A DNA stretch of 64,000 nt from positions 7,706,643 to 7,770,642 of the forward strand of contig CM057140.1 of the NCBI GenBank assembly GCA_029964075.1. The letters run 5' to 3'. Below, in pieces: positions 11,800 through 57,690 of this stretch. Made by a program: the position numbers and the translations under genes. The stretch's first letter is position 1, and each line of letters opens with the position of its first letter. The notes under the pieces were generated by a model, which saw only the letters and a list, made by a program, of their open reading frames with translations, had not been told where the DNA came from and did no database searches. Source of the stretch: Patiria pectinifera (Eukaryota; Echinodermata; Asteroidea; Valvatida; Asterinidae).

Positions 11800-12010
11800 A
11801 TGTAGTGTGAATTTAGGACTATGAAATACTGACATCATGGTAGTATTACGCATACCTTCATGTACGTGAGAATTGTGAATGTTCAACCAACAAAACGGTG
11901 CTGGTACCAGATTTCATAGGAGTCAAAATTTCATGCGACACTAGAAAAGTGTTTATCAACAGTTTACAACCGGCCACATGACGGGCTCTCGACCAATAGG
12001 AATGGGTAAA
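11800..12010 (+). repeat. H dispersed repeat, uninterrupted copy
   Basis: It starts at about GTAGTGTGAATTTAGGACTA and runs through AGATTTCATAGGAGTC to TCTCGACCAATAGGAAT. The same sequence occurs at 16582-17340, interrupted by a TTAA element, and at 40317-41000, interrupted by the palindromic 21-bp array element. This copy has neither insertion and so shows the uninterrupted target. Confidence 0.75.
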
Positions 12011-16459: not shown

Positions 16460-16581
16460 ACCAGCAAAAAAATATACATTTCCAATGATTTTGTTCACCA
16501 ATATTACTTAATGTTTTTTAAACACCCCTCTAACTATGTGCACACTGCGAGACGTTGTGCAGAGTGCCGCTGTGCTGGTGT

Positions 16582-17340
16582 GTAGTGTGAATTTAGGACT
16601 ACATGTATGAAATACTGACTCGTTGGTAGTACTGCGCATGCGTAAGTGAGGATTGTGAACGTTCAACCAATAAAAGGGTGAAAGGGACCAGATTACATAG
16701 GAGTCCAAATTTCATGGGACACTGGAAAAGTGTTTAAAGGGAATATACAACATTTGCTTTTGCTGTAATTTTCAGAAATGGATGGATTTGGGGAATCAAT
16801 ATGTTATAGCACATATTGTTACACCGACTTGTTTGAAGTTTTGTGTTCGTAGATGCTGGAAAAACCAAGAAAAAAATCATGTTCCTGTGGTCTGGTTCCA
16901 TGACCCCACTTAAATTGAAATGGAGCAATTAATAGACGTCGGGGAACCTGTCTAGAAGGCTTGTACCTGTTCATAGATGTGTAATCGATTGTAACCAAAT
17001 TCAGACTAAACATTGGTAACTAAATATGGTAAATTGGGGGCATTATCTGAAAAAAAACCCATTTTTTTTCAAACGCTGGTCGGCCGACCAGTTTTTGAAA
17101 TTGAAACAAACATACCACATTTTTTTAAAATGACAGCACACCAGGTGCCATGATTTTACAGGATGCTTTAGACTGTCATTCCCTAACAGTCCAGTAGGTA
17201 TTTCATAATAATTTGGTAGTTTTGATTTTTGATGTTTGCAAATGTTGTATATTCCCTTTAAGAACAGCCAGCCAGTGTTTTACCAACTGTTTAAGACTGG
17301 CCACGTGATGGGTTCTCGACCAATAGGAATTAGTAGTCAG
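16582..17340 (+). repeat. H dispersed repeat interrupted by a TTAA element
   Basis: The left part (16582-16737) and the right part (17258-17340) match 11800-12010, including CATAGGAGTC and TCTCGACCAATAGGAAT. The element at 16738-17257 sits between them. Confidence 0.7.
16738..17257 (+). mobile_element. TTAA-flanked MITE, 520 bp
   Basis: Perfect 20-bp inverted ends AGGGAATATACAACATTTGC are flanked by TTAA at 16734-16737 and 17258-17261. It is inserted into an H repeat. It encodes no transposase. Confidence 0.82.
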
Positions 17341-33180: not shown

Positions 33181-34247
33181 TACAGCGGGAACCATTCTAG
33201 TATTAATTTACGGCAAATTACAGTATGCCGTATGTGCTTTCAGGAAAGCTTGCTGATCAGGTGAAAACAAAAGGTCCATTGACCAGAGCTATTACTGGAT
33301 AAATATATGATGTGTAACTAGTCCCGCCTAGTCGCGACTTTTTTTTCGCAACTACTGAAATTCACTAGTCACCCACGCCTAAGCACAAGTAATTTTTTGG
33401 GGCCTGTAGTGTTGGCACCTTACAATGATCCTTTCACTATCTGGTTTTTGCCTCATCCTACCATATATAATTTCCTGCGAAGTAAATGGGTAATGCTTTC
33501 ACTGGACAGTTGCATCATTCCACATGTATGCATGGGGGATTCGTATGCATGTATGTGTACATTTTGTATGAATGACATCTTAAAGTTGTTAATGCTTCCA
33601 ACACAACTTTTTAGCAGGCAGTACAAGTTCAACTAAATTTCCGAATATTGGAACATTTTTATAAAGGCTCAGTGCCCCCTCTTGGTCCTGTATCCACTGC
33701 AATATGTCTCTCTTAAAGGATGTCATTTCCTACAGACCAGCCACGTGCATCGGCATTTTGAGCGGCAACTTGCATAACGTGCATCAAACACATTTCAAGC
33801 AACAAGTGCACGTGTTTGGAACAATTTCAACACTGCGCAATGCGTGCTTGATTGCGTAAGACACGCAGTTGCAGTTCTACAGAGATGGCCGTCTTTGAGA
33901 GAGACCTACAAGTACGTGCATTATCTCGTATTCGTAACTACATACATGAATGTACATGCTGCACTTGCACACATGATTCATATCGACCATGTTGACTGCT
34001 GCACATGTGCAGTTAACGCCGGACACTTCTGGTACAACCATGACGACAATCAACCCTTGCTCTATGAATCAACTGACAAATAAGAGCATCATGAATACAA
34101 TTCATCCACACACACAAAATCAAAATTGCCTAAATTTTGCAGGAAAAAAGCAATAAAATATGGATTTATATCTGCCACCAGTCATGCCAGTGCCAGCTGG
34201 TACTCCTAGGCCTACCAAGGGAAGAACAAATGCTGACATTTTCTAAC

Positions 34248-35306
34248 CTGGTTTCTGCCCATGTTTTGGCCATAGCCGCTTCCACTCGTCGACTGTGGGT
34301 GAACTTGGGGCATACCGCTGCTTCTTTGTCCCCAATTTTGAGGCGACTGGTGGAATGTCCCTGACCCTTGGTTTGACATCATTCCAATTGATCCTCCTCC
34401 ATCTGACCCTTTGCCCATACTATCCCCGGGACTGGGATAACTGCTTGAATAGTTTGGCACATGTTTTTGGCCTTGAAGAAGTTGAGAGAGGGTTGGAGCA
34501 GAATTCGAAATTCGATCGCCGCCGTACGATCTCTGTTGCTGTTGGTGTGATGATCCGTAACTGGGTGGCATGGACGGGGCATTTGGACCCGACCTAACGT
34601 TAACGTTAGACCCCATTACCATTGGGGAATATCCCTGCCTGGATCCGATGTGCCCATCATATTGGTTATACGGACTGTTGGTCATGTTTTGATTCTGATT
34701 TGGACCTAGGCCTAGATTCATGTTTAATGCAGAGTTCGGCGGTCCGTTTCCTGTCTGATGTCCGCCATGTTGGTTTTGCATGCCGTATCCAGTATTTCGA
34801 TTCCCATAATAACCACCGTTGTAGCCCTCACTACCCGTCGTGTTTTGAGCAGACTTCAGACCAGAGTTTTCCACTAATTGGTTGTGCACACTGCTATTAC
34901 TAGTGTTGCTCTGAAATGTTCCTCCTGGCCCCGCATATGGGTCTAAACTTCGATTTTGTGAGGGATGATGGCCCGAAGTCATACCACTTTGTCCGACATG
35001 ATGGCCATCTTGCAGAATAGCAGAGTTCGAACCAGGCATGCCAGTTCCAACACTGCTAGCAGTCTTTGTTCCGATCTCAGTCCCAATATTTCCTGGCGGT
35101 TGGCCAGCCGAACTCATGGCATTATTCATACCAGTTCCTTGACTGTCAGTAGGCCCATTCGCCCCCTCCCCACCGGTGTTGTTACGGGATGAGGGCCTAA
35201 AGTCTGGTACGGTGTTGTCCATTGTGTTGTTTGCTGCTTGCTGGCCCTGCGGTCGAGAGTTAATTTCTTGATCGCAATTGACATTTCCAGCGACTTTAGC
35301 TGCCAT
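34248..35306 (-). CDS. ARID1: ARID1 (BAF250/Osa), first coding exon
   Basis: This is the N-terminal 353 codons of an ARID1 subunit of the SWI/SNF (BAF) nucleosome-remodelling complex, a nuclear protein. It starts MAAKVAGNVNCDQEINSRPQ, is rich in N, G, S, Q and P, and has no folded domain, as expected for the disordered ARID1 N-terminus. Residues 268-280 (NSAPTLSQLLQGQ) match the conserved SAPTL-QLL block of vertebrate ARID1A and contain an LxxLL motif (273-277). The donor is AACCAG before GTTAGA, phase 0. I chose the ATG at 35306 because it opens the longest frame. CTAATTTGTTCCCAG lies just upstream and could be a splice acceptor, so the 5' leader may come from another exon. Whether the animal has other ARID1 genes cannot be seen here. 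Confidence 0.93.
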
Positions 35307-39405: not shown

Positions 39406-39792
39406 TTCGCCTAATCTTTATTTCTCACTCAGTGCAACATTTTCCATGGAAAGCTATAAAAATAGGTTCTTTTAGTAAAATTGGCGCGCTGCTTAGGTCA
39501 GAGGTCACAATAGTCATACACAATGCTGCATGTTGCGGTTCGACTCACATAAAATTTACTTTTTTTTTTCTTTTCCCCCAGAAGTGATTTTTTTTTCCGA
39601 AATATTGTGTTTAATTAAGTCCTACTAAGCAAGTCCTACTGACAGATGAAATCAAAATCACTTTTGTCTGATTAATGGCTCCGGAGGATTTTTTTGAAGG
39701 GAAGTATAATGACCGTACCAAGCACCATTCCGTTACCAATTGACCTATCGCCGTTTGCGAGTAAGCCACTCCCAGCTACGGAAGTGTATTTA

Positions 39793-40062
39793 TACGGAAG
39801 CGTATTTAGGACATGACCAAAAAAAGAAAAATCCGGCCCTCTATTTCGCCCGGGCGGATTACTAATTCGCCCGGGCGGATAACTAATTCGCCCGGGCGAA
39901 TTACTATTTCGCCCGGGCGGATTACTATTTCGCCCGGACGGATCACTAATTTTCCCGGGCGAGTTAGTAGTTTGCCCGGGCGAATTAGTAATCCGCCCGG
40001 GCGGAATAGTAATCCGCCGCGAAATAGTAATCTGCCCGGGCGAAATAGTAATCCGCCCGCCG
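39793..40062 (+). mobile_element. Palindromic 21-bp array element, truncated copy
   Basis: The left end TACGGAAGCGTATTTAGGAC is identical to the start of the element at 40419. About eleven 21-bp units around GCCCGGGC follow; orientation switches from GGATTACTA-type to TTAGTAAT-type after about five units. The right terminal repeat is missing, so this copy is truncated or rearranged. Confidence 0.8.
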
Positions 40063-40316
40063 TGTTCACTTGTTCCGACCGTACTTAAGCTAACTCATTC
40101 GGCTCTCGCAGTGCTGGTTCGTCATACTGTGCACAAAATGAAATTCCATTTTCAGAGGGTTGCAAATGGGAATAATCCGAATAAAGTAAATTGAAAATTC
40201 GTTGGAATTAGAAGAAACAAATCAAAATTTTGAAGAGCACGATGTATGCATTTTAACGTGAACAATGCTATGCGGTGTAACGTGAAATGTTGACGCTAAA
40301 AAATACAAACTCATTG

Positions 40317-41000
40317 GTTATACATGGTATTACGCATGCCTAGGTGACGATAATGAGAACAGTGACAGTTCACGTTTAAGGGTACGGGTAAGGTAAAACA
40401 AACACCAGATTTCATAGGTACGGAAGCGTATTTAGGACATGACTGAAAATATATTTTAGGCCCACTTCTTCGCCCGAGCGGATTACTATTTCGCCCGGGA
40501 GAATTACTATTGCGCCCAGGCGGATTACTATTTCGCCCGGGTGGATTACTATTTCGCCCGGGCGGATTAGCATTTCGCCCGGGCAGATTACTATTTCGCC
40601 CGGGCGGATTACTATTCCGCTTGGGCGGATTACTAATTCGCCCGGGCAGATTACTAATTCTCCCGGCCAAGCAGACTACTAATTCGCCTGGGCGAATTAA
40701 TAATCCGTCCGGGCGAAATAGTAATTCGCCTGGGCGAATTAGTAATCCGCCCGGGCGAAATAGTAATCCGCCCGGGCGAATTAGTAATCCGCCCGGGCGA
40801 AATAATAATTCGCCCAGGCGAATTAGTAATCCGCCCGGGCGAAATAATAATTCGCCCGGGCGAATTAGTAATCCGCCCGGGTGAAATAGTAATCCGCCCG
40901 GGCGAAATAGAGGGCCGGAACATTTTTTTTGGGTCATGTCCTAAATACACTTCCGTACATAGGAGTCCAAACTTCCGTACGACACCGGTATTGTAGTTCA
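40317..41000 (+). repeat. H dispersed repeat interrupted by the palindromic array
   Basis: TGGTATTACGCATGCCTAGG, then CAGATTTCATAGG on the left of the insertion, and CATAGGAGTCCAAA on its right, match the uninterrupted copies at 11800-12010 and 16582-16735. Confidence 0.72.
40419..40957 (+). mobile_element. Palindromic 21-bp array element, complete, 539 bp
   Basis: The 25-bp inverted ends (TACGGAAGCGTATTTAGGAC and its inverse, one mismatch) are flanked by CATAGG on both sides (40413-40418 and 40958-40963). Inside are about 21 units of 21 bp, each centred on CGCCCGGGCG. About ten units read GGATTACTA and about eleven read TTAGTAAT, switching at about 40670, so the element is a near-complete palindrome made of palindromic units. 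Because 21 is a multiple of three, several frames stay open on both strands, giving artefactual RPGGLLF repeat ORFs. The 6-bp duplication fits no superfamily I can name with confidence. Confidence 0.88.
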
Positions 41001-46462: not shown

Positions 46463-47060
46463 AATGTTTCACTCAGGGTCTTGACAGTGTATGGAACGAA
46501 ATTAGTAATTTCTAGTGTTTTTCAAAGAATTTCTATCACGGCCCACATTTTCTAATGGTTTATTCAGGGTCTTGATAGTGTATGAAAAAAAAACATTGGC
46601 GGCAGTGTTTTATTTAATGACGCAAATGGGGATATTGGTAGTTTCGTTGCAACGAAATTAGGAATTTCTAGTGTTTTTCAAAGAGTTTCTATCATGGCCC
46701 ACATTTTCAGATGTTTCACTCAGGGTCTTGACAGTGTATGAAAAACATTGGCAGTATAGTGTGTTATTTAATGACGCAAATGGGGATATTAGTAGTTGTT
46801 GCAACGAAATTAGGAATTTCTAGTGTTTTTTTTTAAAGAATTTCTCATCACGGCCAACATTTTCAAATGTTTCACTCATTTTCAAATGGGGATATAGTGT
46901 GTTATTATGACGCGAAATTAATGGGGATATTAGTTGTTTCTTTGCAACAGAATTAGGAATTTCCATTGTTTTTCTTAAAATTTATCACGCCTATATTTTC
47001 ACATTAATGTCTTGACGTTGTATACAAACATTGTCAGAAGTGTGTTAAGGATGTTAAGAA
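46463..47060 (+). repeat. Diverged tandem repeat, about 155-bp period
   Basis: CACTCAGGGTCTTGACAGTG recurs at about 46470, 46560, 46717 and, decayed, near 46872 and 47003. It alternates with GAATTTCTAGTGTTTTTCAA and GACGCAAATGGGGATATT. The first unit is shortened, and similarity falls toward the right. Confidence 0.72.
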
Positions 47061-55886: not shown

Positions 55887-57112
55887 AGAGGGTCAAAACT
55901 CGCGGGCAATCTCCAGTCGGACTACTTCGTCAACGGCATAGCCAACGCAACTCGAGACTATAACTACCCGTCATTAGAACAAGGAAAGACAAGCTAAAAC
56001 CACTCAAAATTGCAACGACTTTCTTCAGGATGTTGAGTTCTTGCCGATCAAGAATTTCTGTGACTGTATGCTGGCATTGAAACATCGGAACAAGATTGAG
56101 ATATTATTTGTACTGCGAACTTTGTCAAAATGTTTGCTTTAACTGTGTGAAAACATGTATATTGTTAAAAACATTTATATTGTTACATGTAATCACGTGC
56201 AAACTTTCTACATAAGACAAAAATGGTACTTGATTTTCACCTAAACAACTTTCACCTGAACAATTCCATTTGAGAAACGGTGTAGCATGCTGTATAAAAC
56301 AAATGGTTCTTGACTTTCACGTAAACGTACGAACATGTATAAGAAAATGCATAAAATGTCAATTGAGAAACGGTGTAGTAAAGTAGCAAATTTGCAAAAG
56401 TAATTGTGTCAATTTTGGTGTTTCTTTAATCCCCACTTCATTATTTTGTAGGAATGGAGTGATGGAGGCATTATTACCCTCCCAAAGAATGGAGAGGTTT
56501 ATCGCCTCCAACGCTCCATTCGTGCAAAATAATGGAGCGCCAGGACAATAGGGTGACGTCACGGGTGGAGTTTAATATTTATGCACTCTTCGTTATTCCA
56601 ACCCAACGTAGTTCAAAGATCGCGATATTTGAAGCAATGCATCGGTCCTTCGTTGATCGCAAAACAGGCCCCAAAAATAACGCGACACTGAATTGTACGT
56701 GGCAGGCAGCGAACTCACAACATCAGCCAGTACCCCCTCTATGCGCTCTGTTCATTTTGGGGGTCGTCTTATTGAATGACTAGTACTGCAGTCAATGCGT
56801 GCGTGGTATATACCGGACCACGCGCGCATTTATTTTCGTTACTGTGCACGTACATACATGTATGGATCGTGGTCTCCACTATCAATACCCCAAACGTGAT
56901 GATACAATTCGAGGATTAATTTGCTGGATTTAACTCAAGCATTAAGGAGATAATCCACGGTAAATCAAAGCCAATTAGTGCAATAAATCATGTGTGCAAA
57001 AGACCATTCATGTAAGTCGGCAAAATGACGACTTACAGCAGATATCGGCATTCGCGTAAGTCGTCACAAATTCTCGGGTCCCGAGAGTGCCGGTTTAGCC
57101 GGAGTTTACTGT

Positions 57113-57690
57113 AAATGGTTTCCGGATGATAACTTGAGTTAGAAATGAGATTTTGGTGTCTAACTTTGGTAGGGGGTTGCCCTTGGGTACAGGCAAGTTG
57201 GGATTGGTTTGGGGGTCAAAAGGTCAAGGTCACCGTGGTGAGTTCAAGATAAATGGTTTCCGGATGATAACTTGAGTTAGAAATGAGATTTTGGTGTCTA
57301 ACTTTGGTAGGGGGTTGCCCTTGGGAGTAGGGAAGTTGGGATTGGTTTGGGGGTCAAAAGGTCAAGGTCACCGTGGTGAGTTCAAGATAAATGGTTTCCG
57401 GATGATAACTTCAGTTAGAAATGAGATTTTGGTGTCTAACTTTGGTAGGGGGTTGCCCTTGGGAGTAGGGAAGTTGGGATTGGTTTTGGGGTCACAAGGT
57501 CAAAGGTCATCGTTGTGAGGTAAAGGTAAATGGTTTCCGGATGATAACTTGAGTTAGAAATGAGATTTTGGTGTCTAACTCCAGCAGGGGGTTGTCCTTT
57601 GGTACAGGCAAGTTGGGATCGGTTTTGGGGTCAAAAGGTCAAAGTCACCGTGGTGAGTTCAAGGTAAATGGTTTCCGGATGATAACTTGA
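57113..57690 (+). repeat. 138-bp tandem repeat, about 4.2 units
   Basis: Units start AAATGGTTTCCGGATGATAA at 57113, 57251, 57389, 57528 and 57666 (periods 138, 138, 139, 138). Identity between units is high, lowest in the fourth. Each unit carries an AGGTCA-type pair: AGGTCAAGGTCA (57221 and 57359), AGGTCAAAGGTCA (57497) and AGGTCAAAGTCA (57636). Confidence 0.92.

Follow-up and report, generated by a model that had tools for sequence, protein, structure and literature searches.

The element at 40419–40957 and its insertion site

The window analysed here, a 64,000-nucleotide stretch of the Patiria pectinifera genome, carries at positions 40419–40957 an element of 539 bp, bounded by 25-bp terminal inverted repeats with one mismatch between them and flanked by the 6-bp duplication CATAGG. 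Reading along the plus strand, we see the left duplication (40413–40418), the left terminal inverted repeat (40419–40443; a ‘C-type’ end, TACGGAAGCG...), a subterminal stretch rich in A/T that separates this repeat from the array (40444–40471), and then a left arm of 10 cores at 21-bp spacing, whose spacers run forwards (40472–40668). A 17-bp centre spacer at the turn (40669–40685, plus strand) makes the single 25-bp core-to-core step of the element, from the core starting at 40661 to that starting at 40686; beyond it, the right arm holds 11 cores, again spaced at 21 bp, with its spacers reversed (40686–40903, minus strand). The right terminal inverted repeat (40933–40957, minus strand; a ‘T-type’ end, TACGGAAGTG...) and the right duplication (40958–40963, plus strand) complete the structure. 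All 21 cores of the body lie within two mismatches of GCCCGGGC, and the initial annotation—a 539-bp element with 25-bp ends and a CATAGG duplication, built of about 21 units of 21 bp that flip orientation at the midpoint—is borne out on each of these points.

A second copy (39793–40060, plus strand) retains its left end, at 39793, and an array of 9 cores reaching to about 40060, its right end having been lost; the truncated copy previously placed at 39793–40062 is therefore real.

Other features of the window include an open frame of 364 amino acids on the minus strand (34212–35306) that gives no Pfam match, for which a 78% identical protein exists and whose sequence resembles the N-terminal exon of a chromatin gene of the ARID1 type, and two tandem arrays, at 46495–46878 (156-bp unit, 2.5 copies) and 57112–57690 (138-bp unit, 4.2 copies). 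An unclassified host repeat occurs as diverged copies at about 11800–11957, 16569–16735 and 40275–41000, the first two being identical at 222 of 341 aligned columns.

Uninterrupted versions of this host repeat had been reported to exist in the window, and we recover two counterparts of the empty site, each in a diverged copy: one at 11906–11924 (ACCAGATTTCATAGGAGTC, plus strand) and a second at 16687–16709 (ACCAGATTACATAGGAGTCCAAA, plus strand). When the flanks of the element are joined over one CATAGG, they align to these two sites with scores of 79 and 83, respectively, against at most 47 for 300 other segments of the window (host-repeat copies excluded); the 539-bp element is thus an insertion accompanied by a 6-bp target duplication. 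Just beyond the right duplication, positions 40970–40979 read AACTTCCGTA, which resembles the element's own end; the other two copies of the host repeat differ at this position, and the likeness may reflect either chance or conversion.

An open frame of 208 amino acids runs over the array. It is without a Pfam match, so that the element carries no transposase detectable by a Pfam search of this frame, and we read it as a by-product of the 21-bp period, which keeps frames in register.

A genome-wide family of non-coding elements

Within the window's own assembly (613.5 Mb, 1020 contigs), a DNA search returned 443 first-look candidates, 40 of which were scored, whilst the end pattern TACGGWAGYGTATTTAGGACATG, allowing at most one mismatch, gave 319 matches (156 forward, 163 reverse); the reversed pattern, used as a control, gave none. 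From 69 loci—the 39 best matches to the window copy plus the first 30 pattern matches, and so a non-random sample—we read 57 distinct copies with both ends present and at least 8 cores each. They range from 266 to 878 bp in length; the nearest to the window copy is 97.0% identical to it, and across all pairs the median identity is 91.8%. A lone fragment (TACGGAAGCGTATT) was also seen at L024:1427–1449, a complete copy lying 48 bp upstream of it.

A perfect 6-bp target duplication flanks 38 of the 57 copies and a longer one flanks none; a further 5 match at five of the six bases, and the remaining 14 at four or fewer. When the strands are collapsed, the 38 perfect duplications comprise 32 different sequences, the other 6 being further occurrences of one of these 32, in part because of segmental duplication. 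C or G is favoured at the outer positions of the duplicated site and A or T in its middle. With respect to their ends, 49 of the 57 copies pair one C-type with one T-type end (5 have two T-type and 3 two C-type ends), and this pairing points to a fixed polarity.

Together with the empty sites, these duplications confirm the proposal of a transposable element with a real 6-bp target duplication: the element is a real, multi-copy, non-coding transposable DNA element. Its body is mostly tandem array, as would be that of a dispersed minisatellite or an assembly artefact that happens to resemble a transposon, but we find such an explanation scarcely credible given that the ends are defined, that unrelated sites carry target duplications, that empty sites exist and that matches fall on 20 contigs; as a general explanation, an assembly artefact is made unlikely by the 38 copies, at many loci, that each have a perfect 6-bp duplication of their own.

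The length of the duplication would also suit a derivative of hAT6 or of Dada, the latter being described with 6–7 bp. In the portions of the literature available to us, however, the Dada elements whose ends can be defined are inserted in small RNA genes, and terminal inverted repeats are described as absent from Dada-U6 and Dada-U1; the present element, by contrast, has a terminal repeat of 25 bp, and its copies have 32 different target sequences. Neither tRNAs nor Rfam families were found in the window, and an insertion of Dada type into a small RNA gene was accordingly not encountered there. For hAT6, the ends of the element presumably fall outside the hAT end consensus. We consider a derivative of either kind very unlikely.

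Relatives may also exist outside this genome. A profile search of proteins gave 19 matches, 13 of which carry the terminal repeat as an in-frame trace (AYLGH, VYLGH, AYLGG, YGGLFRTW; 9 of 11 in the subset with E < 0.001), a count to be read in the knowledge that the profile itself contained such a trace; an earlier query with the array frame, devoid of the trace, gave 6 matches, of which the two that carry it (P0006 and P0010) are included in the 19. The proteins are hypothetical, are translated through arrays similar to the present one and lie on other ENA contigs, 13 of the 19 on contigs longer than 1 megabase. Some of them have other spacers, and P0012 shows a 25-bp step between cores. The in-frame traces show that relatives are present on other records. 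Exact matches to the terminal-repeat pattern numbered 0 in viral contigs and 0 in prokaryote genome contigs, and blastn of the element against phages gave no match.

Array structure, unit turnover and nesting

Across the 57 copies, 997 of 1084 spacings between adjacent cores are exactly 21 bp. Precisely one 25-bp spacing is present in 48 copies (none in the other 9), located at the turn, or within about one unit of it, in nearly all of the 48; it is to these 48 that our analyses of arm length and spacers refer. Left arms contain 2–23 units and right arms 1–29, the two numbers coinciding in 4 of the 48 copies. Spacers resemble their neighbours along the arm, with resemblance exceeding the arm mean at a lag of one unit in 79% of 73 arms and at a lag of two in 83% of 69; with a lag of three units the share is 56% of 63 arms and, with four, 38% of 58.

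The consensus 21-bp unit, which contains three CpGs, is self-complementary around the centre of its core at 8 of 10 positions; for the 13-bp spacer, taken about its own centre, the figure is 4 of 6. Modelled as single-stranded DNA, the window element is predicted to fold almost end to end at –230.8 kcal/mol (mean of 100 shuffled sequences, –92.1 kcal/mol; z = –31), with imperfect pairing that runs on past the 25-bp terminal inverted repeats and through both arms; on this prediction, hairpin formation by the element is possible.

It might be supposed from this near-complete folding of a strand upon itself that the palindrome is a growth device, the arms being made and kept alike by hairpin-templated copying; the comparison of mirrored spacers can be cited in the same sense, since with anchoring at the ends 21 of 29 copies fall below the all-pairs mean (8 of 29 with anchoring at the centre). 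Arm lengths, however, are barely correlated (r = 0.22), and a permutation test applied to the 24 of the 48 copies that have uninterrupted runs with at least four spacers per arm gave a significant mirror match (p < 0.05) in 0 of 24, with either the centre or the ends as the starting point (median p 0.505 and 0.69). The likeness is found instead between neighbouring spacers along each arm and, in the window element, two spacer types alternate over most of the right arm whereas the left arm shows no alternation. We thus find no support for one arm being copied into the other, and regard this account of how the arms arose as unlikely.

Pairs of copies occupying the same site provide a more direct view of how arms change, and in 2 of 5 such pairs the change is by whole units, as the initial annotation had supposed. 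The pair at L025 (duplication AATATG) has identical flanks (400 + 400 bp), and an alignment of its two elements shows one base difference and two gaps, separate from each other, of 21 bp each. Between the elements of the pair L066/L068 there are gaps of 105 and 3 bp; here the left flanks are 98% identical over 391 bp, whereas the right flanks, past the nearest bases, align only partly. Whole-unit change is absent from the same-site pairs L033/L034, L027/L036 and L008/L013. Taken with the likeness of neighbouring spacers and the outcome of the mirror test, these pairs establish that whole units are in some cases gained or lost, arm by arm.

Among 693 units, column conservation is 91–98% in the core and 63–100% in the spacer, the high value for the core being in part a matter of selection, since units were found through their similarity to GCCCGGGC. 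No excess decay of CpG was found in the same units: transitions amount to 4.7% at CpG and 4.9% at other C/G positions, near-equal rates that speak either against the arrays being heavily methylated in the germline or for their steady homogenisation, which could mask such decay. Our best guess is that the 21-bp units are putative repeated protein-binding sites, because a spacing of two helical turns is kept in so large a share of intervals and because Galileo offers a precedent (see below); alternatively, slippage that shifts whole units could keep the same spacing. A unit this regular, 21 bp long, nearly palindromic and with three CpGs, makes testable the idea that foldback arms are transposase-binding sites in multiplied form.

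Copies of the family also appear to enter one another. At locus L007, one element interrupts another within its right terminal repeat, and this repeat continues on the far side of the inner element; the outer duplication is GGTTTT and the inner, AAATAC, lies inside the outer end. Directly before the second copy of the window there are 16 bp of further terminal repeat (TACGGAAGTGTATTTA; 39777–39792, plus strand), a feature absent from the initial annotation, and the junction is the same as in L014, where TACGGAAGTGTATTTA likewise precedes the left end; we read it as a probable self-insertion. In L032, a version of TACGGAAGTGTATTTA ending in GTATTT stands before the left end. The copy at L042 is flanked on each outer side by GCTTTC, with AAATACACTTCCGTA following its right end, and is best read as the probable product of nesting followed by loss between arrays. 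L014, L032 and L042 are all among the 14 copies whose duplications match at four bases or fewer.

In total, 5 of 58 copies (the 57 plus the second copy of the window) appear to sit at one spot of another's terminal repeat, namely bases 10–15 or 11–16, against about 0.0007 such cases expected of random insertion under a uniform model, a comparison drawn from a non-random sample. Nesting is fully demonstrated in one of the five, L007; the other four have left one side only or a collapsed remnant, and for L014, L032 and the second copy of the window a local duplication of 15–16 bp is possible instead. The rearrangements seen are confined to gain and loss of units and to the one nesting-and-loss copy, L042. 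The L025 pair and the repeated insertion at one position of the terminal repeat offer handles on how the arms grow.

One further reading, tentative and in our view doubtful, would make the family an array of binding sites that targets and extends itself: the two-turn 21-bp palindromes would line up transposase or cofactor molecules along a single face of the helix, this platform would steer new insertions to one fixed place (bases 10–16) in the terminal repeats of existing copies, and nesting with exchange between arrays would then rebuild the lengths of the arms; if it were true, one machine would drive both spread and growth.

Class, mobilisation and comparison with known systems

In its architecture, though not as a statement of phylogenetic family, the element works like a foldback element: long inverted arms of short tandem units surround a centre, and the number of units varies between arms and between copies. 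IS3EU, a superfamily of DNA transposons in Repbase, is related to GingerRoot. Fungal IS3EU families are described with 6-bp target duplications, TAYGG..CCRTA ends and terminal inverted repeats longer than 30 bp (PMC12730594); more generally, the ends of IS3EU families are TA..TA and their duplications usually of 6 bp, and in May 2022 Repbase held 45 families, 17 of them autonomous, with non-autonomous ones known (PMC10045372). The ends of the window copy, TACGG..CCGTA, fit the TAYGG..CCRTA form, and other copies have the same with a few point changes; the duplication, too, has the IS3EU length of 6 bp. With the foldback architecture, the ends and the duplication length all matching, the earlier view that no known class fits is not supported. 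The element differs from an autonomous IS3EU transposon in lacking a transposase, and its IS3EU membership can only be inferred, as no transposase is tied to these ends.

For such a partner, we examined the element's own genome. A search with NF033577 gave 68 scored matches, none of them above the family cut-off, and many lie in long open frames that we take to be LTR retrotransposons. Among the loci read in this genome, no transposase was found between ends of the TACGGAAGYGTATTTAGGACATG type, and the 20 transposase loci (L083–L102; 3.5–3.8 kb each) contain no element end within 6 mismatches. Two of these, L096 (C14:17109236–17112859) and L097, which are 99.4% identical to each other over 3.6 kb, encode an IS3-like integrase: rve and OTU score above the Pfam cut-offs, HTH_21 and rve_3 below, and in L097 the OTU (a cysteine-protease domain) shares an open frame with the integrase. 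The surrounding 8.5 kb (C14:17106800–17115300) are without an element end within 8 mismatches, and this partner is consequently not tied to the element. The autonomous relative with shared ends that the initial annotation proposed to look for was found neither at L083–L102 nor in the 8.5 kb around L096. A lone end on contig C10, followed for 3 kb, leads into an ordinary array with no other end in that stretch, the next one listed being 12.8 kb away.

A second foldback-like family, seen at L008:2105–2971 with relatives at L070–L081, has a closely similar end (TATGGAAGTGTAGATAGGACATG) and 1368 first-look candidates genome-wide, and 8 of the 12 copies read have a 6-bp duplication. It differs from the present family in having plain inverted repeats, of 244–295 bp in 7 of the 12 copies and 32–206 bp in the other 5, and CCCGGG cores in none of the 12. 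Such a picture is to be expected if one kind of transposase carries several passengers.

The explanation that we favour as a whole, with a probability of roughly 0.8, is of a non-autonomous foldback element moved by an IS3EU-type transposase, with gain and loss of units, putative binding arrays and nesting. The transposase, acting in trans, would cut at the TACGG..CCGTA ends seen here and link them to the two target strands at positions 6 bp apart, consistent with the duplications observed. The ends enclose two inverted arrays of the 21-bp near-palindrome around one 25-bp centre, and units are gained and lost independently in each arm, a pattern observed here that would arise through slippage or unequal exchange. 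The 21-bp spacing, equal to two helical turns, most likely keeps repeated binding sites aligned along a single face of the helix; the protein bound would, as a best guess, be the transposase or its partner, as for Galileo. Some insertions would land in another copy's terminal repeat at bases 10–16, as in the one case seen in full, and nesting with loss between arrays could then yield chimeric copies and partial duplications of ends.

The architecture has several precedents, at least as far as the accessible parts of their descriptions go. Tm1 of root-knot nematodes (Mutator/Foldback) has end motifs followed by arms of variable 13–15-bp tandem units, along with MITE-like members and empty sites, but its duplications are mostly of 9 bp, its 7-bp end motifs are asymmetric and, in that description, its unit is not called palindromic (PMC3169594). 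Tetris of Drosophila virilis resembles our element in its long terminal repeats with a variable number of tandem units, although the units are of about 220 bp (PMC4079207); Galileo, a P-type foldback element, shares the variable tandem units of long terminal repeats but has duplications of 7–8 bp (PMC4168063), and its arm repeats hold binding sites for the transposase THAP domain (PMC3688188). The arms of Rehavkus-1_TC are of similar tandem-unit design, in an element of 9.5 kb with a 164-bp unit (PMC10218199). Such shared architecture, with tandem units in both arms, is what would recommend a foldback element of Mutator type (Tm1, Rehavkus) or P type (Galileo) (PMC3169594, PMC10218199). Neither the mostly 9-bp duplication of the former, as in Tm1, nor the 7–8 bp of the latter is seen among our 57 copies, which show exactly 6 bp in 38 and nothing longer, and the TACGG ends have the IS3EU form; we hold an origin of either type to be decidedly unlikely.

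Foldback arms of a 21-bp palindrome occur in none of the IS3EU passages seen, and among the open-access matches listed, represented by titles and abstract openings, no IS3EU element has foldback arms or a 21-bp palindromic unit. Set against the open literature, what appears to be new here is the joining of foldback architecture to IS3EU-type ends; because the same architecture is here coupled to ends of this type, it looks like one that very different transposases could favour.
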